Position numbers and translations under genes: made by a program. A stretch of 34,359 nucleotides of DNA from Methanobacteriota archaeon. Lineage in GTDB: Archaea > Thermoplasmatota > Poseidoniia > Poseidoniales > Poseidoniaceae. Under the pieces are notes generated by a model. That model was given only the letters and a program-made list of their open reading frames with translations. It did not search any database and was not told where the DNA came from. Below, piece after piece: positions 4,998 through 20,253 of the stretch (position 1 is the first letter of the stretch; every line of letters begins with the position of its first letter). The stretch is from assembly GCA_018649825.1 (NCBI GenBank), contig JABIHC010000026.1, positions 1 through 34,359 of the forward strand. The letters are read 5' to 3'.

Positions 4998-6203
4998 ATG
5001 TCTATGAGCGACTATCTTGACCGAATCGGGGCTGGCCTCGTTATTGAACATACAGAGTACTTTAGTTTTGACTACATTCCGTCAGAATTAGTTGGCAGGG
5101 ATAATGAAATTACCAATTTGGCTTCAATGATGAGAGGAGTTTTCGAAAATAATAGTAGTGGGCGAGCAATAATTACAGGACGAGTTGGCTCGGGCAAAAC
5201 CGCAATGACAAGGCGGTTTTGTACAGACGTTGAAAAAAAGTTTGCCGAAAAAAAATCAATAAAGGCCATTCATATCAATTGCCGAAATGTTACCACAAAG
5301 CCACAGGTTTTTCAGCATTTAATCAAAACATTTGACGAACGGCACCCCGATAGGGGCTTGGGGAGTGGAGAGTTATTACGTAGTATTAGGCGACTCATGA
5401 GAAATGAGAACACCCATTTTATTGTCGTTTTGGATGAGGTTGACCATCTATTACGCAGATCTGGTGATGATGTCTTATACCAACTTTTACGAATTGACGA
5501 AGGTGAAAAAACCCAAGGAACCCTTTCCCTTATTCTAATCAGCCAAGAGAATGTGCTTAACGTTCTCGAAAGTGCAGTAATTTCACGCTTTGGTCGCTCA
5601 AACCACCTGCGCCTTGCCCCGTATAATGAAGAGGGGTTATACAATATTGCCAAACAACGCGCAGAGTTAGCATTAGTCCCTGGGTCGTATAGTGATGAAA
5701 TATTGCAACTTATCGCCGAATCAAGTTCTTCTAATGGTGATGCTCGCTTAGCCATTGAACTTCTTGAGGCTTCTGCCAAGCGTTGTGAAAATGCTGGCCG
5801 TAAAGAAATTACCATTAAAGATGTAAATGCAGTATCAAGCACTCAGCCTCAAGTGATGGTTGATGGAGCAGCAATAGAAACTCTTCCACTACATTCCATG
5901 ATTGCCTTTTTAGCGATATGTCGTCGCCTTAACAAGGCAAACCAAATTGTAACCGGTGATGTTGAGAAACTATACCGCGTTGTTTGTGAAGAATATGAAG
6001 TCAAACCTCGTGGCCACACTACATTGTGGAAATATCTCAAAATGATGGTCAAGTGCAATTTCATTATGTCCCGTTATACTGCGCTAGAGGGAGGGCGTGG
6101 TCGAACCCAATATTTCTCAATGCCGCATGCCCTACCTAGTGATGTTGCCAAGCGTTTGGAATTGCTTATTCCGGCAATTATTCGCAATAATTCAAAGAAA
6201 TAG
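4998..6203 (+). CDS. cdc6: Orc1/Cdc6 family replication initiator
   Basis: AAA+ with Walker A GRVGSGKTAMT and Walker B FIVVLDEVDHLL, ORC-type lid (ISRFGRSNHLRLAPYNEEGLYNI; GDARLAIELLEAS), C-terminal wHTH region. Confidence 0.93.
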   Translation: MSMSDYLDRIGAGLVIEHTEYFSFDYIPSELVGRDNEITNLASMMRGVFENNSSGRAIITGRVGSGKTAMTRRFCTDVEKKFAEKKSIKAIHINCRNVTTKPQVFQHLIKTFDERHPDRGLGSGELLRSIRRLMRNENTHFIVVLDEVDHLLRRSGDDVLYQLLRIDEGEKTQGTLSLILISQENVLNVLESAVISRFGRSNHLRLAPYNEEGLYNIAKQRAELALVPGSYSDEILQLIAESSSSNGDARLAIELLEASAKRCENAGRKEITIKDVNAVSSTQPQVMVDGAAIETLPLHSMIAFLAICRRLNKANQIVTGDVEKLYRVVCEEYEVKPRGHTTLWKYLKMMVKCNFIMSRYTALEGGRGRTQYFSMPHALPSDVAKRLELLIPAIIRNNSKK

Positions 6204-8561: not shown

Positions 8562-8605
8562 ATTGCGCAATATTGACTATTGTCGGTATTGCCTTTATTA
8601 TTGAC
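8562..8605. promoter_or_regulatory. Candidate operator: 10-bp palindrome ATTGCGCAAT followed by four TATTGNC direct repeats
   Basis: ATTGCGCAAT at 8562-8571. TATTGAC 8571, TATTGTC 8578, TATTGCC 8587, TATTGAC 8599. Lies just upstream of the wHTH gene start at 8625 and downstream of an A10 tract. Confidence 0.4.
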
Positions 8606-8624
8606 AAGAATACGGAAACGGAAT

Positions 8625-9032
8625 ATGGCCGAAATTGATGCTGCTGCAAATGCTGTCCCTGAGGCGAGAGGTTTACCAATTCCATTGGCAATGGAACTCA
8701 TATCTTTACTCAAACAACTTGGCCTCAATCACTCTACTGCAAATGTACTAATTTGCCTTCACCGCCACGATAATCTCGATAGCGTAAGCATCCAGAATAT
8801 TTGTAATCTAAGGCAACCCGAAGTTAGCATTGCAATAAATGAATTAAAATCAATTAATGCGATCAGAATAGTGCCTCAACAATTGCGAAGTAGGGGGCGG
8901 CCAAAACACATTTATTCCTTAAACGGAAGTCTTGAAGAAGTATTGCAACCGGTAATTATTAATGCGCAGGATAAACTAATTCAAATGCAGCAACAACTTG
9001 AGGACATAGGCAAAATTACCAGCCTATTATGA
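8625..9032 (+). CDS. Winged-helix transcriptional regulator (MarR/TrmB-like)
   Basis: LGLNHSTANVLICLHRHDNLDSVSIQNICNLRQPEVSIAINELKSINAIRIVPQQLRSRGRPKHIYSL is a classic HTH plus wing. C-terminal coiled helix. Start placed at ATG 8625, not TTG 8580. Confidence 0.75.
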   Translation: MAEIDAAANAVPEARGLPIPLAMELISLLKQLGLNHSTANVLICLHRHDNLDSVSIQNICNLRQPEVSIAINELKSINAIRIVPQQLRSRGRPKHIYSLNGSLEEVLQPVIINAQDKLIQMQQQLEDIGKITSLL

Positions 9033-10411: not shown

Positions 10412-12424
10412 TTAGCCCTCCAGCAAACCCCATGCAATCATCTGAGCCCTTGCATCGTTTGTAATTGAAAAGAGACGAGAACGGCCCATTTTGCGAACTT
10501 TGAAGATCCCTGCTTTCTGCAAGCCATTGCATAATTGTGACATTCTTGGGCGCCTTACATTTAATCCATTCATTAAAGCTTCATCACTTGGAGAAAATTC
10601 TCGTTGTAATGCCGTCTCTATTAAAAATGCCTCATTTGAACATAAATTACGGAGATGTTCGGCATTTAAGGCAACACTTTGCGGAGGTTGTTGCGGTTGT
10701 GGTTGATTCAAAGCAGTGAGACGGCCTGCAAGGCCATTTGCGAACATATTCGCCGGCTCACCCGAAACAACGCCTAGATTTGCCATAGAATGGGCATTTG
10801 GGGTTATGTGAGAGCGGTGCTGTGGAGAATATTGGCGAATATGTGGCTGGAGTGCATTAGGAGGCAGAGGTTGCTCAGTGGGTAATCTAGCAGGCAAAGC
10901 CCCGGGTGGGTGCGGTAGTGGATGAGATTGTGGTAGTGAATGATGTGCCTGAATTGGATAGCCCTGATGAGGCTGGGGTGCTGGATGCTGATTTTGCATC
11001 GGAACAGTAGATATTGCGATTTCCTCAGTCTCTATTTCCGGAAGAGGGGCTTCTGTGGCGAGCCACAAATCAGAACCATCATCTTGCATGTTTGGTTTTT
11101 CGCTTGCTTCGGTGTAATTTGGCAGTTTGCTATCTTTTTCAAAACGCGGTGAATCAAAGTTTGCTTGACGGTTTCTAGATGTCAATGAACCAAAAGGCCC
11201 TCTTGGAATTGGCAGGCTTGATTCACTATCGTACTCGCCTATTGGATTTGATGTATCATCAGACTCCTCATTATTACCTGCTTCAACCGACTCAATGCCT
11301 TCCTCCATAGCATCGTATTCGGCATTACCGCCATCAAACATGCTAAACTCAAAGGGAATATCAGCATTGTTTTCATCCTCAAGAATATCTGTTATCCGCT
11401 CTTTCTTGCCTTCATCAACCGGATCTATCATCATAGAGGACTTAGTTGGTATCCCCTCACTTTGGACGGCAATAGTGCTATTTGGCTCCAAAGGTGCATG
11501 GGTTTTGCCTACAATAGCGGCAGAATCGTCAGGTACCCCTACCTCTCCTAGCGCTTCCTCAATTGAAGAAGGAATATATTCGGGCGCATACTTCCCACTC
11601 ATGAGTGAATACTGGCCCTCGCTATCTTCGCCCTCAAGTGCATCAAATGCAGCTTTTAGGCTGATTAAATTGTCGTCGATTTCTTTTTCTTTACGCGAGT
11701 AATCAAAAAGATCTCGCAATAAGCGAACTGTGCGGCCTACATGCCCTCCTGTTTCATCCAAAATACACTTGGATAATGCCGTAGGAAGGCTCCATTGAAT
11801 ACGGCTGACCTCACTCATACGTCGGCTAACTAATTCATCAAGTGCCTCCTCATCAAGAGGTTTCAGTTCGTCCACTTCATCAAAAGAGGATATTAACTCC
11901 TCGGGAAAGGATGCTAATTGCGCCGGAGTAACTGTAATCAGCACTAATGCTCGGAAACGGCGCAAATGGTCTACTAAACGCCCAAATACTTCGACCATTT
12001 GTGCACCAGTTGCACTTGGATAATCGTAAGTAAGTAACGGCAAAGTGCCAGTGTGGCCTGCCATTTCAGAAACTAATTTTTCAACTGTTAATGTATAATG
12101 ATGAGGCTGATCAAAGCCTACAATAGTAGCAAATGTCTCTCCAAGCACACGATGGGCGGGGTTTTCAGAAGGAAGCATAGTAAGCGAATAGAAGCGCTCA
12201 GTTTGTGAGGCGAGAGAGTGCAATAATGAGGTACGGCCCGAACCTCGTTCCCCTTTTACCAAAATAATTCGCGGCGATTGATGCTTTAACAGACGGAATA
12301 ATTTCGACATTACCTGGTTTCGGCCAGCCAATAGGCGCCATTCCGATGATTCAAGCGGTCTGCCGGAAAAAGGGTTAGACCGCATCGGAGGTAGATTGAG
12401 ATTGAATTCAGCCCGCTCGCTCAT
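10412..12424 (-). CDS. AAA+/ORC-like ATPase with long Pro/Gln/His-rich linker and C-terminal wHTH
   Basis: Walker A VKGERGSGRTSLL; ORC/ExeA-like lid DETGGHVGRTVRLLRDLF; disordered QPHQGYPIQAHHSLPQSHPLPHPPG linker; C-terminal LCSNEAFLIETALQ...LNVRRPRMSQLCNGLQKAGIFKVRKMGRSRLFSIT wHTH. Confidence 0.78.
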   Translation of the reverse strand: MSERAEFNLNLPPMRSNPFSGRPLESSEWRLLAGRNQVMSKLFRLLKHQSPRIILVKGERGSGRTSLLHSLASQTERFYSLTMLPSENPAHRVLGETFATIVGFDQPHHYTLTVEKLVSEMAGHTGTLPLLTYDYPSATGAQMVEVFGRLVDHLRRFRALVLITVTPAQLASFPEELISSFDEVDELKPLDEEALDELVSRRMSEVSRIQWSLPTALSKCILDETGGHVGRTVRLLRDLFDYSRKEKEIDDNLISLKAAFDALEGEDSEGQYSLMSGKYAPEYIPSSIEEALGEVGVPDDSAAIVGKTHAPLEPNSTIAVQSEGIPTKSSMMIDPVDEGKKERITDILEDENNADIPFEFSMFDGGNAEYDAMEEGIESVEAGNNEESDDTSNPIGEYDSESSLPIPRGPFGSLTSRNRQANFDSPRFEKDSKLPNYTEASEKPNMQDDGSDLWLATEAPLPEIETEEIAISTVPMQNQHPAPQPHQGYPIQAHHSLPQSHPLPHPPGALPARLPTEQPLPPNALQPHIRQYSPQHRSHITPNAHSMANLGVVSGEPANMFANGLAGRLTALNQPQPQQPPQSVALNAEHLRNLCSNEAFLIETALQREFSPSDEALMNGLNVRRPRMSQLCNGLQKAGIFKVRKMGRSRLFSITNDARAQMIAWGLLEG

Positions 12425-12541
12425 AATTCCTCTCAGCCGACTTCATGGCTTATAGCGTTTGACGCATTTACGCATATTAACGAGTGGTTTTGAATACTTA
12501 AAGGCAATACTCGGCGCAAATTGCAAAATTGGACTGTAATA

Positions 12542-12567
12542 TAAATGGCGGTAAAAATAGCCATTTA
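12542..12567. repeat. 8-bp perfect inverted repeat TAAATGGC-N10-GCCATTTA
   Basis: Arms at 12542-12549 and 12560-12567, read directly. Confidence 0.8.
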
Positions 12568-12615
12568 ACGAATGATTAACGCTTTATTAACGCATTCTTT
12601 AACGCGTTAATAACG
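12565..12615. repeat. Phased TTAACG direct repeats with embedded 12-bp palindrome TTAACGCGTTAA
   Basis: TTAACG at 12565, 12576, 12587 and 12599, and ATAACG at 12610: spacing 11, 11, 12, 11 bp. Palindrome TTAACGCGTTAA at 12599-12610. An additional TTAACG at 12477. Confidence 0.85.
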
Positions 12616-12831
12616 CCTAATGCTGCAAATCATTATACCACTCGAGGCACCATAGCACTCCTGAGAAAAAGAAATGTGTTGCCCAATAGAAGTTGGCCTC
12701 AGCATGACAGGCTACCGTAGAGTGAAATGCGAGGCTGCGCATGGCGCGAAGCAAGTGAAAGGGCACAATTGCTCGTTATTACCGGCAAAGGCATTAGATA
12801 GAGGGCGCGCCGGAGGCAATTGGGGAGTCGC

Positions 12832-14136
12832 ATGCCTGTTGATGATAGTCGCCTACCGGGGTTCCACAAACTTAGCGTTACTGAAAGACGCAGAAAGGTT
12901 GCCGAAATGGCACTCTTAGGTGCTGCCGACATCGCCACATTGGAAAATTATGGCGAGTTAGACGAGGAAGCAGCTAACCGAATGATTGAGAATGTCATTG
13001 GCACAATGTCATTACCAGTAGGCATTGCAACAAATTTCGTGATTGACGGTAAACCGTATGTGGTGCCTTTTGTAGTTGAAGAATCAAGCGTTGTCGCCGC
13101 GGCATCCAATATGGCAAAGCGTTGCCTTGTCAAGGGAGGATTTAGGACAAATAACGACAAACCAATAATGATTGGACAGTTGCAGGTTATCGGTGTAGAA
13201 GATCATGTTGCTGCTGAGAAAATCATCTTTGGTGCGAAGGAAGAAATCATCGCTAAGTGCAATAGTTTACCCTCGACAATGATTCGCCTGGGCGGAGGTT
13301 GTAAGGACATACTTACTCGCTCGATTCAATCAATGTCAGGGCCAATGTTTGTGATCCACATCCTCGTTGATTGTCGTGATGCAATGGGTGCGAATGCAGT
13401 CAACACTATGACTGAAATGATAGCCCCCGATATTGAATCCTTAATTGGAGGATCGGTAAAACTGAAAATATTATCTAACCTTGCAAGTCATCGTTTAGCA
13501 AGAGCATCTGCGACTTGGACTCCCGAAGAATTGTCCCTTGACGGTAGCCGCGAGAGTGGCGAAAGCGTCATTTTGGGAATAATAAATGCATATCACTTTG
13601 CAGATGCCGACCCGTTTAGAGCTGCTACACACAACAAGGGAATAATGAATGCAATTAGTTCAGTTGCAGTTGCGTGTGGGCAAGATTGGCGAGCCATTGA
13701 AGCCGGATGCCATTCTTGGGCAGCATACAACAATGGCAAGTATTCCTCAATAACGCACTGGGAAGTAAACTCAGACGGAGATCTCCATGGTTCAATTGAA
13801 TGCCCTATGGCAGTCGGCATTGTTGGCGGTGCAAGCAAGGTACATCCTGCAGCCAAGGCTAATTTGAATATCCTTGGAGTTGAGTCATCACAAGAATTGG
13901 CAGGAGTTATTGCCGCAACTGGATTATCACAAAATTTAGCCGCCTTATTTGCTCTTTCTACTGCCGGAATACAAGCCGGACACATGAAGCTACATGCGAA
14001 AAATATGGCAGTTTCTGCCGGAGCAGTTGGCGGAGAGATAGAGAAAATTGTAGAATTCGTGCATAACCACGATGGCCCTATCACTCAACAATCTGTCGTT
14101 AGCGCCCTAAAAAAACTGCGTGAAAATACCCTTTGA
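12832..14136 (+). CDS. mvaA: Hydroxymethylglutaryl-CoA reductase, class II (degradative/bacterial-type lineage)
   Basis: SRLPGFHKLSVTERRRKV, VGIATNFVIDGKPYVVPFVVEESSVVAAAS, VDCRDAMGANAVNTM, NKGIMNAISSVAVACGQDWRAIEAGCHS, GHMKLHAKNMAVSAGA. Start at ATG 12832. Confidence 0.93.
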   Translation: MPVDDSRLPGFHKLSVTERRRKVAEMALLGAADIATLENYGELDEEAANRMIENVIGTMSLPVGIATNFVIDGKPYVVPFVVEESSVVAAASNMAKRCLVKGGFRTNNDKPIMIGQLQVIGVEDHVAAEKIIFGAKEEIIAKCNSLPSTMIRLGGGCKDILTRSIQSMSGPMFVIHILVDCRDAMGANAVNTMTEMIAPDIESLIGGSVKLKILSNLASHRLARASATWTPEELSLDGSRESGESVILGIINAYHFADADPFRAATHNKGIMNAISSVAVACGQDWRAIEAGCHSWAAYNNGKYSSITHWEVNSDGDLHGSIECPMAVGIVGGASKVHPAAKANLNILGVESSQELAGVIAATGLSQNLAALFALSTAGIQAGHMKLHAKNMAVSAGAVGGEIEKIVEFVHNHDGPITQQSVVSALKKLRENTL

Positions 14137-14248: not shown

Positions 14249-14845
14249 TCATTCTTCCTCAGATACAGGAAGAAGCGTCTGTCCGGTTTCTGGTGATAAT
14301 GCAGCAGGACGTTCAGCACCCTGGGTAAGTCCAGCTTTATCCACCTGCTCTCGCCACCATTTTCGTACCTTGCCCTTATCGCTATGTGGGCATCCAAACA
14401 TTTCAGAAAACCTCCTCGTTGTAGAAAGGCGGCGTGTATTTCCATCTCTGCGACGGTCAATTAACCCCGCGTTGGAAAGTGCTCTAACATGGTCGTAAGC
14501 CTTTGGGCCGAGTAGTTCCACCAATCTTGTCTGTGACATGGGTTGATGATATGCAATGAGTGAAAGGGTTTTGAGATGTGCCTCTGAAACCGTTGGCTTG
14601 GCAGATTGCGGGAGATAATCTGCTAGTTTTGGTTTCACTTCAAGAGCCCAGCGGTGTCCGACTTCCGAAAGTTGGATTGCACCGCCGCGGCGACGCTTTA
14701 ATGATGAATGAAGAGAATTGAGGGCGTGGATTACTTCAATAACATCAGCACTCAACCCTTCTGCAAGTTCCTCTGGAGTCATCGAGCGACCTGCACCAAA
14801 TAATGTGGCTTCAATGAGAGTTTCTAGCCCAGGTTTACTCACCAC
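14249..14845 (-). CDS. scpB: Segregation and condensation protein B
   Basis: LIEATLFGAGRSMTPEELAEGL; GHRWALEVKPKLADYLP...KPTVSEAHLKTLSLIAYHQPMSQTRLVELLGPKAYDHVRALSNAGLIDRRRDGNTRRLSTTRRFSEMFG. Overlaps the scpA 3' end by 11 bp. Confidence 0.92.
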   Translation of the reverse strand: MVSKPGLETLIEATLFGAGRSMTPEELAEGLSADVIEVIHALNSLHSSLKRRRGGAIQLSEVGHRWALEVKPKLADYLPQSAKPTVSEAHLKTLSLIAYHQPMSQTRLVELLGPKAYDHVRALSNAGLIDRRRDGNTRRLSTTRRFSEMFGCPHSDKGKVRKWWREQVDKAGLTQGAERPAALSPETGQTLLPVSEEE

Positions 14846-16118
14846 TTACACCCCCGTCGGTAATAATGTCCAACATTGCTGCTGGGATGGGGTCCGCATC
14901 AGTAGCGGCTTGGTTTATTGCGGCAGAGGTTATCTCCTCTTTGTTTGCAACCGCCGCATCTATTGCAGCAAGAGCCGCCTCTTGGCGTGATAATAACTCT
15001 ACCTCTTCAGCAGCCTTAGCAGCCATAGCCCTTGCGACTAATGCCTCTTGTTTTATGCGATAGCGCTCTGTCCCACCCATCTCTTCTTCAGCAGCCTTTG
15101 CGCGTTCATTAGCATCTCGTTCACAAATTGCCATTACCGCTTCAAAAGTGAGTAATTGATGATGTTTGTCGCGAATGTGAATTGGCCCATCTGGTGCATC
15201 TTCCTGCCACAAGTCAATCACTCCCAAATGAGTAAGATGTAAACTAGATAGAAGAGTAGTAACCCATGCTTGCTCGTCAATATCTTCTGGCTCAGAGCCA
15301 TATTCGGTAATCATTTGCAGGCGAATTGCATCTTTGACTGCAGACAGAGGCAGTGGTGCTTTGCTTGATTTACCATCGGCTTGTAAGGCATCGCGGAATG
15401 AAATCCAGCACAGGCGAAGATCTTTTTCCAAATTTTCATCATGCATTTTATTCCCAACGGTAGAAATCGCATTCTTGACTGCTGCTGCATGGCGCTTACG
15501 GTGTTCTTCACGCAGGCGGACTTCTTCTGATTCGACACAGGCTTCTCTAAGTGCACCGAGTAATTCACCGAGCGTTACAGGCCGGCCTTCGTCCCGATGC
15601 ACCCTCTCTTGGAATAAATTGGGTAATGTGGAGTCGGCTTCACCGGTTAGAACATTATTGGTAAAGGCAAATTCTGCATCATCAAATTCCACCTCCCAGC
15701 CACCGAGGAAATTAAAGTCAGACTCTTCTTCTTCGTCCGCCAAAAGAGCGCGGCCATACAGATCTTCGGCTTGATGCCTAAGCACACCCCACGCAAGACG
15801 AATTAGGCGTCCACAAGAAGGCAGGTCTAACTCTCCACTACCCTTGCGGATTCTTTTACTAAAGAGGCGGATAAACTTTTCAAGGTCAATCGACCAAGGA
15901 TTAAGGCCTTCAGTACGAACTAATTCAAAGACTAGAGCAACTGAACGGTCAAATGGATCTTTGAGAGATTTGTGTTCGGCTTCATCTAATTGAGCCAGTT
16001 CCATTATGCGGTTGGCATAAAGTTGCGCATCGTCTTCCGTATCAGCACCTTCTGCTCGCAATTGGTCTATTACATCCTGTCTAAGGAACCATTTGTCAAG
16101 ACTCTCTTGCTTCATCAT
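14835..16118 (-). CDS. scpA: Segregation and condensation protein A with C-terminal extension
   Basis: DPFDRSVALVFELVRTEGLNPWSIDLEKFIRLFSKRIRKGS...LDLPSCGRLIRLAWGVLRHQAEDL, then LTFEAVMAICERDANERAKAAEEE and an Ala/Glu-rich tail. Adjacent to smc and scpB. SD-like GGAGGTGAG before ATG 16118. Confidence 0.88.
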   Translation of the reverse strand: MMKQESLDKWFLRQDVIDQLRAEGADTEDDAQLYANRIMELAQLDEAEHKSLKDPFDRSVALVFELVRTEGLNPWSIDLEKFIRLFSKRIRKGSGELDLPSCGRLIRLAWGVLRHQAEDLYGRALLADEEEESDFNFLGGWEVEFDDAEFAFTNNVLTGEADSTLPNLFQERVHRDEGRPVTLGELLGALREACVESEEVRLREEHRKRHAAAVKNAISTVGNKMHDENLEKDLRLCWISFRDALQADGKSSKAPLPLSAVKDAIRLQMITEYGSEPEDIDEQAWVTTLLSSLHLTHLGVIDLWQEDAPDGPIHIRDKHHQLLTFEAVMAICERDANERAKAAEEEMGGTERYRIKQEALVARAMAAKAAEEVELLSRQEAALAAIDAAVANKEEITSAAINQAATDADPIPAAMLDIITDGGVSGE

Positions 16119-16159
16119 CTCACCTCCTTTTCTCATTGTTGAAATTAGTCGCTAGATAC

Positions 16160-19100
16160 TTACTCATCCTCGTCAATAGTTTTTTCTTCAATGGCAGGGT
16201 CGTCCGGGGCTTCCTCATCAGCCTGTGAGATTGCCTTGTGCAAGTTCTGTTCTTCGTCGATATCCTCGCTTAAGTCTGCAGTTCTTGCCTGTAAATCGCC
16301 GAGAGGATTTGTGGTGTCAGAGATATCTGTGATTTCGGGGGCATCAGTGGCGTCTGTGAGGCCGGGAGTGTCTGTGGTTTCGCCGACGCTAGTTTCGGCT
16401 TCCCCTTCATCTTCAAGCCCGCCGAGAGATTCAGGATATTCGATTTCTTCTGGAATCAATTCCATGTCATTTGGATCGGGAAGGTCGCCAAGGCGCTCGA
16501 GTAGATCTTGGCGCTCATTAGCAGCAATATTATCCTTCAACTCAGAAAATGCCTTCTCACCCAATTCAATAGCACGCTCACGGTCAAAGTTAGCAATACG
16601 ACGACTACATCCATCACCGGCGTGTGTAATACCTATGTGATGGTCCGCCAACTGCAAACTAACCTTACGCAAAGTAACTTGGATGAATTGAGCCTTCTCG
16701 CTTCTTAATCGGCACATTGTGGCAATACGCTCAGCATTAATTGGATCGAGGTTTTGGTCTACTTCATCAAAGTAGTAAAATGGACTTGGGTCGTAATCTT
16801 GGATGGCAAAGATAAGGGCAAGGCTTGCCATAGATTGTTCCCCACCGGATAATTGCTCGAGTTTTACCTTACTAGATTTGCCTGGTGGTTTTGCCCACAT
16901 GGAGAGGCCGCCCTTGAATGGGTCATCTGGTTTTTCCAGGAAAAGTTCACCTTTTCCTCCTCCAGACAAGTTTTTGTAAACTTCTCTAAAATTACTGTCA
17001 ACTTCCTTGAGTACTGCCGACAAGCGCTTCTTACGCTGCTTTTCAAGACGCTCGGCGAGGCCATCTAATTCTCTACGCCGAGCATTCAATTTCTTATTAT
17101 CTCCCTTCAAAGATTCAACTCGGTCAACAGTTGAATCATATTTTTCAATTGCTAACATATTTACTGGACCGATTAATTCAAGGCGACGTTCAAGTTTCCT
17201 CACATTAGTTTCTGCTTCGCCTACAGGAGGTAAACTGACTCCTGCTGAAGCAGGTGCGAGGTCCATTGTTGCCATTTCGTTGGTGAGTTCAGCAAGTTCA
17301 GCTTGTTTTAGTTGGATTTGTAGAGTTAAATCATTTGCTCTATTTAGCAGAGTTTCAGCTTGAGCGGCTTCTTGTTCCAAACTAAGGCGTAGCCCAATAC
17401 GTTCTTCGGTTGCTTGAATTCTTTTTTGGTCAAGATCCGAATGTTCCGATGTAATCTTGGAATGAGCATCTTCAGCAATTGATAACTCAGCAGATAAGTT
17501 TGTGATTTCAATCTCTAACTTCCCATTTCTTGAACTGCGGTTAGCATTATCTTTTGCGAGACGGTTTCGTCGCCCAGCGAGTTCTTTTACTCGGTCTGAA
17601 AAAATACTGCCATGTGTGCTTCCACTAGAAAGAATGGCTTCGGCTTTGGCCTTTTGTGATTCTGCATTTACACGCAATTCTTGTGACTTACGTAGCATGT
17701 CTTGAAGATGTTGTGGGCTCGCACTTTGAAGGGCCTCATTTGCAGTAGTTCGGTCTGCTTCGGCTTGTTCAAGTGCAGTAGTTGCAACTGCCAAACTGTC
17801 CTCCTTCGCCTTCAGCGCCTTATCGGATTGGGCTAATTGCTCTTCCACTTTCTTGACAATTCCAATAGCCTTGGATAGACGTCCTTCTGCAAGGCGCAAT
17901 TCCTCTCGCCATTGGCGTAATTTTAGTGCTGAATCATCATTAGTGATTTCATTTATTTGCTGGCGTAACTTTTGTTGCTTTGCTCTTGCTTCGCCAAGTG
18001 ATGCATTAACAGTATCCGCCATTAATTGCAAGCGATTTACTTCGGCCTCAAGTTTTTCTATTTCCGAAGCACCAGCTAATTTACCGCCAAATCCAGTCTT
18101 TATCTTCATTGGCGCACCACCCTGCATGGCTCCTCCGTGTTCGGTGATATCTCCGCGGATTGTCACAAGGCGAACTCCGCCCATATGCTTCCTTGCAGTT
18201 GCAAGGTCGCTGACAACCAAGGTATCTCTTACCACATAATGAACTGCATTTTCAAAGCGGGGATCGAATTCAAGTAATTCAGATGCCAAACCGAGAACAC
18301 CTGGCTGGCGTTCTATCATCCTCGCCTTTCCGCCTACGCGATATGATTTCATCTGGTTGAGAGGGAGGAACATCGCACGGCCAACGCGGTTTTCGCGTAA
18401 CCAGGCCATGCATTCAGCAGCAACTTGGTCAGATTCGACAACTATTGCCGACATTCCACCCATGCCAATTGCAGTAGCGAGGGCGAGTTCGTGTGAGGAA
18501 TCACGAGGCTTGCACAATTCACTAATCGTGCCGATTATTCCGCGCCTTTGCCCACTATCGCGTAGGTGCAAGAGTCGTTGAACTGCAGCGATATGCCCGC
18601 CGCGACCTCCTGAAGCGCCCTCTAATTCAGCGCGCTTCAAAGCCAGATTACGATCTGCCTCGCGGAGACGTGAATTAATCGCTTCAAATTCAGTTGATAA
18701 TTTTGTTTCACTTCGCTGCATTTGCACCAGCGATTCTCCAAGTTTTTTGCGGCTAACAACGGGAGTATCCTCGCCTAATTCCTCGCCTTCAAGTTTAAGA
18801 TCGTCCACTGCTAATTGGGCTTCAGTTACTTGTTCTTGGGCTTCAGCAAGTTGTTGAGCGGTTAATTCCACATGTTGGGCTGCGCGGTCGCGTTTGAGTT
18901 GGGCGTCGGATAATTTACCCTGAACTTCGTGGGCCACCTCTCCTGCTTTACCAAGTGCTCGAGTTAATTCGCGGGTGTGCTTATCACCAGTTGACAGGGC
19001 ATCCTTCGCTTCTGCTTCAGCAGTTTCAGCAGAAATGAAATTTGCTTCTGCTTCCTTTAATGCGGATTGGGCTGCGAGTACTTCCTTCGTATGTTCATCT

Positions 19101-20146
19101 AATGCGAATTGTGCTTCTTTTTCTTCGCCCAGTAGTATCTCAATATCTTCTTCGGCGTCAGCAATCGCCGTTTCTGAATCCGTGATTTGATCCCTTCTGC
19201 GATCGGTTTCGCGGTGAAGTTTGTTGATGCGCTCTCGTAATTGACTGGCTTCCTCGCCGAGTACATCGGCGATTTGCTTTTCCAAATCAGCGACTTTTTC
19301 ATCCAATTGAAGAAGTTCTTTGGCGCCGATTTGCACCTTTGCCTTCAAGGAAGTACCTTCTTCATTATATCGCACCTGTTCTTCACTAAGGAATTGGATT
19401 TCGTCGTAACGTGAACGGTGCTTTGCGTGAAGAAGGGTTGCCTTTGCAGCACTCAATTCGTCTATTAGACTTTGAGCGCTGATTGCTTGTTCGCGCTCTC
19501 GTTTTAAGTCCTTTAATTGTGAAGATAATTCAGTTTCAAGTAAAGTTATCCTTTCAATGAACTCATCTACACGCTCTTTTTGCTTGTGGGCCTTACGGAT
19601 TTCATCATCGTAGTCGGTAACTCCAGCAACTTTGTCCAACACTTTTCTTCGCTTTGAAGGTGTCATTCGGGCTAAATTGGTGACGTCCCCTTGTAAGACA
19701 ATATTGTAACCATCGGCACTTGCATTGGCACCGGCCAATAACATACGGAAGTGATTGCGGGAAGATGACTCCCCATTGAGGAAATATTCTGAAACCACAT
19801 TATTGCTCTTAGTCAAGCGAATTGAACGAGTAAGGCGGACCTCATCTGTGTCAATGTTTAGTGAACGACGCTCGTCTTCAGCGGCAGGGTTGTCAAAAAT
19901 TAGCGTTACTTTACAACCTCTTGCAGGTCGGTTTGAACCTCCGCCGTTGAAAATTAAATCTTTTGAATTGTCCGCACGGATATTTTTATTTGATTTTGTT
20001 CCCAAAACGAATTGTATGGCGTCACCACAATTTGATTTCCCAGAACCATTCGGCCCTGTTATTGCAGTAAAACCTCTAATGAATGGTACATCTACTTGTC
20101 CTTTGAACGATTTGAAATTCTCTAATTCCAACCCTTTGAGATACAT
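16160..20146 (-). CDS. smc: Chromosome segregation protein SMC with acidic C-terminal tail
   Basis: N-terminal [16 protein letters not shown]...[21 protein letters not shown]; coiled coils; hinge ([12 protein letters not shown]...); C-terminal [44 protein letters not shown]. Confidence 0.96.
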   Translation of the reverse strand: [1328 protein letters not shown]

Positions 20147-20253
20147 ATTATTCCCTCCCCTCAACCAAAATGGCTAACGACATTCTAACATGCGAACCTT
20201 GACAGGTAATAAGCAATACGACAATAGATGTGCCCCCTAAAGGCTTTCAAAGG

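Follow-up and report, generated by a model that had tools for sequence, protein, structure and literature searches.

The intergenic region between a gene encoding an AAA+/winged-helix protein and the divergent HMG-CoA reductase (HMGR) gene of a Poseidoniales archaeon carried an array of helically phased TTAACG boxes. Judging from comparative sequence analysis, this array is a real and strongly selected feature that is present in a single copy per genome throughout the order. On balance, we favored its interpretation as a cooperative operator, one per chromosome, most likely bound by the divergently encoded AAA+/ArsR-type winged-helix protein. Such an operator would probably be autoregulatory and possibly act on HMGR as well.

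The phased array and its genomic setting

The analyzed stretch of DNA, referred to as the window, was 34,359 nucleotides long, and its relevant features are collected in Table 1. The main array consisted of five boxes in direct register, spaced by 11, 11, 12, and 11 bp on the raw sequence, and one inverted box within the palindrome TTAACGCGTTAA. The repeat coordinates and spacings that had been reported in the first-pass annotation were all exact, and so were the 12-bp palindrome and the three degenerate copies closer to the AAA+ gene. The inverted box was missing from its list.

Table 1. Coordinates of the array, associated sequence elements, and neighboring genes in the window
Feature	Position	Strand	Remarks
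Second Orc1/Cdc6 paralog	4998..6203	+	near the AAA+ gene
MreA/Lrs14-like winged-helix regulator	8580..9032		similar gene at the same place in G011
WD40-like beta-propeller with C-terminal helices	9372..10532	-	overlaps the AAA+ gene, same direction; conserved operon partner
AAA+/disordered linker/ArsR-like winged-helix protein, 670 aa	10412..12424	-	likely binder
TATA-like element CTATAAG	12449..12455	-	-25 to -31 from the AAA+ start codon
AAA+-proximal boxes	12459..12482	+	TTGACG 12459, TTTACG 12467, TTAACG 12477 (-40, -48, -58 from the AAA+ start)
Inverted repeat TAAATGGC-N10-GCCATTTA	12542..12567	none	perfect, 8 bp
Main array	12565..12615	+	TTAACG at 12565, 12576, 12587, 12599; ATAACG at 12610; inverted CGTTAA at 12605
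Palindrome TTAACGCGTTAA	12599..12610	none	candidate dimer site
HMG-CoA reductase (class II/TIGR00532 type)	12832..14136	+	divergent neighbor, start 216 bp from the array
ScpB; ScpA-like (by position); SMC (read from sequence)	14249..14845; 14835..16136; 16160..20164	-	conserved neighborhood

Five TTAACG/CGTTAA boxes were found within 50 bp at the array, compared with a maximum of 3 boxes per 50 bp in 500 dinucleotide shuffles of the whole window and a maximum of 2 in 5000 shuffles of the intergenic region. The total number of TTAACG in the window was ordinary (15 vs 12.4 expected) and, therefore, it was the clustering that was special. The absence of overall overrepresentation would suit a chance or compositional repeat without function. 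However, such an origin was excluded by the shuffles, the order-wide lattice, and the single-site specificity described below, and we consider it practically negligible.

The perfect inverted repeat abutting the array was also present as annotated. However, it was not kept even within the genus, being broken in a sister species (congener G001), and none was seen in the upstream regions of other genera. Thus, we rejected it as a component of the site; it is probably unrelated to the array. A structured RNA or tRNA was dropped as well since the window had no Rfam or tRNA match.

In the 47 of 49 regions in which the HMGR start was identified, this gene was the divergent neighbor. On the other side, the beta-propeller protein was highly conserved, with a mean column identity of 45%, but had no match in Pfam or NCBIfam; its true start is probably near 10433. 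Nearly every genome had two Orc1/Cdc6 paralogs, one linked to the array and the other located elsewhere. The linked paralog was 2.1-4.8 kb away (from its lid domain to the AAA+ gene) in 48/48 genomes that had both on one contig. Moreover, about 100 kb surrounding the array were largely colinear between the two families of Poseidoniales.

Conservation and uniqueness of the array

We extracted the sequences upstream of AAA+ genes, which yielded 49 regions (in one of them, from G011, the array was broken by 15 Ns). The boxes followed the same 11-bp lattice in 49/49 regions, covering both families of Poseidoniales (Marine Group II), f1 and f2, which probably correspond to Poseidoniaceae and Thalassarchaeaceae. 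Namely, neighboring boxes on the same strand were 11 bp apart in 76 of the 119 pairs, 12 bp in 20, and 22-23 bp in 7, while neighbors on opposite strands were chiefly 6 (the palindrome), 17, or 2 bp apart and thus formed fixed inverted pairs. Arrays commonly had 5-8 boxes. Such strict conservation in every relative examined predicted a working protein-binding site.

The array was also specific to a single location. In the 2.0-Mb draft genome of the same organism, the pattern TWAACGN{4,6}TWAACG matched at the array and nowhere else; given the lack of a second array, we rejected a widespread regulon. The first-pass annotation had proposed a genome-wide TTAACG count and an alignment of orthologous intergenic regions, and had named varying spacing in relatives or an equal repeat density elsewhere as evidence against its reading. 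Both checks came out in its favor, with the spacing kept across the order and the two-box pattern confined to the array within the genome. In G011 (59% sampled), the single further match was a loose cluster at 1809754 within a long ORF. The palindrome was present in 17 of 59 genomes, in one copy each, always inside this array.

An exact three-box pattern in direct register was found in 43 of 146 genomes representing 14 of 21 genera, with 54 matches vs 2 for a reversed control pattern. We cross-checked 30 of these 43 genomes against known AAA+ coordinates, and in 30/30 the match was located just upstream of the AAA+ gene. Additionally, of the 80 contigs with the triple pattern listed from an independent collection, 20 had the AAA+ gene, and in all 20 the array started 106-171 bp from it. 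These records were named Euryarchaeota, Candidatus Poseidoniales, Poseidoniaceae, Thalassarchaeaceae, or Marine Group II. The remaining 60 listed contigs had no relative of the AAA+ N-terminus. A Paludibacteraceae genome carried TTAACG triple boxes that were repeated in tandem every 33 bp on several contigs (L200, L201, L208, and others) that were unconnected to an AAA+ gene. A virus-borne element was rejected because the box-plus-palindrome pattern gave 0 matches in viral contigs; the triple box gave 38 scattered stretches.

The array and the AAA+ gene also occurred together. The gene was present in 57 of 59 genomes and, according to a profile search, in 95 of the 96 Poseidoniales sampled, with 0 matches among the sister-family genomes listed. 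Thus, both gene and array were found throughout Poseidoniales, while the sister family f3 lacked the gene; there, HMGR had different neighbors and the array was not found. Three genomes (G030, G050, and G071) had neither the AAA+ gene nor an HMGR match. The region was thus absent from their assemblies, making them uninformative as natural controls.

The AAA+/winged-helix protein and its promoter

The first-pass annotation described the gene next to the array as encoding a predicted DNA-binding AAA+/winged-helix protein, and the domain analysis agreed with it. The protein comprised an N-terminal AAA+ domain with the Walker A motif GERGSGRTS, a disordered linker of ~300 residues, and, at the C-terminus, a winged helix, which was its most conserved section. 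In Walker B, the aspartate was followed by Y, F, H, or other residues instead of the usual glutamate. The closest solved folds for the model of the protein were ORC/Cdc6 (E 3.8e-7, with a low TM over the whole query), and this Orc1/Cdc6-like match was not exclusive since RuvB, MuB, and TnsC followed close behind. The winged helix, modeled with a pLDDT of about 90, resembled ArsR-family BigR (E 2.5e-5 to 2e-3, well under the NCBIfam equivalog cut-off). By sequence and predicted fold, the C-terminal domain is of the ArsR/SmtB winged-helix type. Neither the Cdc6 lid (PF22703) nor the Cdc6 C-terminal winged helix (PF09079) was detected in 26 AAA+ members at E 0.01, and the PF22703 scan pointed to two other genes per genome, not to the AAA+ gene. 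By these profile comparisons, the protein is outside the Orc1/Cdc6 family and initiator-like in predicted fold alone.

The placement of the boxes was of a promoter type. The AT content upstream of the AAA+ start peaked at -30 (mean of 49 genomes), with a TATA-like element near -28, and relatives had GAAACATCATATAC or GTGAATATTATG at the position of the TATA-like element of the window. Since this element was so close to the start codon, we infer that the AAA+ transcript is nearly leaderless. A second box set abutted the TATA element on its upstream side; a proximal box was present in 48 of 49 genomes, and many f2 genomes shared a fixed pattern of proximal boxes at about -70/-48/-38. The AT content upstream of the AAA+ start also peaked approximately every 10 bp, out to about -200, and was about 0.62-0.78 at -100 to -140.

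Several observations tied the array to the AAA+ side. The distance from the end of the main array was steadier to the AAA+ start (132 +/- 17 bp) than to HMGR (109 +/- 46 bp). Moreover, the window and the congener G001 hardly differed over the stretch that begins at the AAA+ start and includes the array; just beyond it, toward HMGR, the similarity was abruptly lost. No confident position could be assigned to the HMGR promoter. In six upstream regions (L044, L045, L048, L049, L050, and L051), a recurrent gcgattgattcaagga- or gcgattgcttgatgg-like element preceded the HMGR start, and it perhaps represents the HMGR transcription start or leader.

Competing explanations and biological meaning

The lattice, the single site, the promoter-type placement, the co-occurrence of gene and array, and the domains of the protein were the reasons for the operator interpretation; helically phased sites at a conserved position by a core promoter are what characterizes a cooperative operator. 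In the proposed mechanism, every TTAACG box would be recognized by one winged helix. With steps of 11 bp, the protomers would line up along the same side of the DNA, and symmetric dimers would bind at inverted pairs such as TTAACGCGTTAA. Through their AAA+ domains, which are held on a long and flexible linker, the protomers would assemble into one complex, probably in an ATP-dependent manner. This complex would also contact the proximal boxes next to the AAA+ TATA element and would thereby regulate the operon of the AAA+ and beta-propeller genes (autoregulation) and possibly HMGR on the opposite side. It is the identity of the binder, its cooperativity, the choice between repression and activation, and any effect on HMGR that we infer. 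Some points spoke against this interpretation. It would be unusual for an array found once per genome to serve a dedicated autoregulator, and 5-8 boxes are more than simple autoregulation needs. Since the main array was 105-161 bp from the AAA+ start, past the core promoter, action at a distance or looping must be assumed. Additionally, other DNA-binding proteins were encoded nearby, namely the second Orc1/Cdc6 paralog and the MreA-like regulator.

These neighbors suggested a variant in which the array is an operator for another protein (for example, the MreA-like regulator with its winged helix or the Orc1/Cdc6 paralog linked to the array), with HMGR maybe as the main target. Both genes were close by in the window and in G011, HMGR was always the divergent neighbor, and in some genera its start was just 53-60 bp from the array. 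However, the array was missing along with the AAA+ gene in the sister family, and its steadier distance to that gene and the conserved block on the same side also argued against another binder, so we consider this variant improbable. A different kind of function, which we regard as unlikely but serious, would be chromosome maintenance, where the array is a minor or conditional origin or a segregation (centromere-like) site and the AAA+/winged-helix protein is a lineage-specific initiator or partition protein. The single copy per genome, the adjoining gene with its Orc1/Cdc6-like AAA+ fold and winged helix, the Orc1/Cdc6 paralog within 5 kb in 48/48 genomes, the SMC-ScpAB genes in the same block, and the mostly colinear ~100 kb were all consistent with it. 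Moreover, archaeal origins typically have repeats (origin recognition boxes) beside an initiator gene, orc1/cdc6 or whiP (PMC4010727). On the other hand, the AT content next to the array was not striking for an unwinding tract, the proximal boxes adjoined the TATA element, and the skew did not switch at the array in six genera. It is also doubtful, though conceivable, that the array works with the protein as a replicator-initiator or segregation pair specific to this lineage. Such a pair would add a third initiator-like system to the two Orc1/Cdc6 paralogs of Poseidoniales and mark one chromosomal site per cell.

The skew, corrected for gene strand, was calculated for the complete genome of G011 (59% sampled, four-fold sites) and for large contigs of G139, G053, G007, G023, and G025. 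In G011, its sign flipped at two places, with a sharp change near 1.235 Mb and a diffuse one near 0.05-0.1 Mb, and the array, located at 0.695 Mb, coincided with neither; the values there were -0.059 on the left and -0.052 on the right vs -0.093 to +0.101 at 1.235 Mb. The array of G053 was flanked by +0.130/+0.145, and no strand-corrected switch was found at the array in any of the six genera. A single dominant origin at the array was thus unlikely, and we rejected the main-origin form of the iteron reading that the first-pass annotation had offered beside the operator. A replicator that fires rarely, or a segregation site, would hardly affect the skew and, therefore, was compatible with this result. 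In G139, a GC-skew switch was about 80-95 kb from the array. The sharp strand-corrected AT-skew switch of G011 (C1, ~1.235 Mb) had neither of the Orc1/Cdc6 genes nearby and can be considered a candidate origin or terminus. Thus, of the two readings in the first-pass annotation, the operator, along with its AAA+/winged-helix neighbor, was well supported by the 49/49 lattice, the one site per genome, and the second box set at the AAA+ TATA element, while the iteron or origin reading was not supported as a main origin; the inverted repeat was not conserved.

The array shared features with several known systems. Similar to archaeal origins of the Orc1/Cdc6 type (PMC4010727), it had boxes in both orientations by an AAA+/winged-helix gene and a conserved neighborhood. 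Unlike them, it showed no skew switch and no evident unwinding tract, its TTAACG boxes were spaced at 11 bp, and the neighboring protein lacked the Cdc6 lid and Cdc6 C-terminal families. Iterons of plasmid replicons are direct repeats about one helical turn apart by the gene of their binder, and the array resembled them in its direct repeats of such spacing beside the likely binder gene. However, it was chromosomal where the context could be seen, had boxes that were also inverted, and its second set abutted a promoter. Cooperative or looped autoregulatory operators have phased sites on one face of the helix, proximal and distal clusters, and divergent genes. The array had all of these as well. 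It differed in its presumed binder, a fusion protein that combines an AAA+ ATPase with an ArsR-like winged helix, and in being present once per genome. In Corynebacterium, the MarR-type regulator CrtR is encoded divergently from isoprenoid genes (PMC5401885), and the winged-helix regulator gene described here was likewise divergent from an isoprenoid biosynthesis gene. In comparison to CrtR, the protein was an AAA+ fusion, with no sign of isoprenoid sensing. Our literature searches found no paper on HMGR regulation in archaea or on Poseidoniales origins.

Poseidoniales are among the most abundant archaea of the surface ocean, their regulation is little known, and we know of no cultured member. 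HMG-CoA reductase catalyzes a key step of archaeal lipid synthesis. For this order, a single order-wide cis element, its likely protein, and its exact boxes could be named from sequence alone. Thus, the array may be a model with which to test the idea of an ATPase-linked archaeal operator, and it represents a candidate control point of HMG-CoA reductase.
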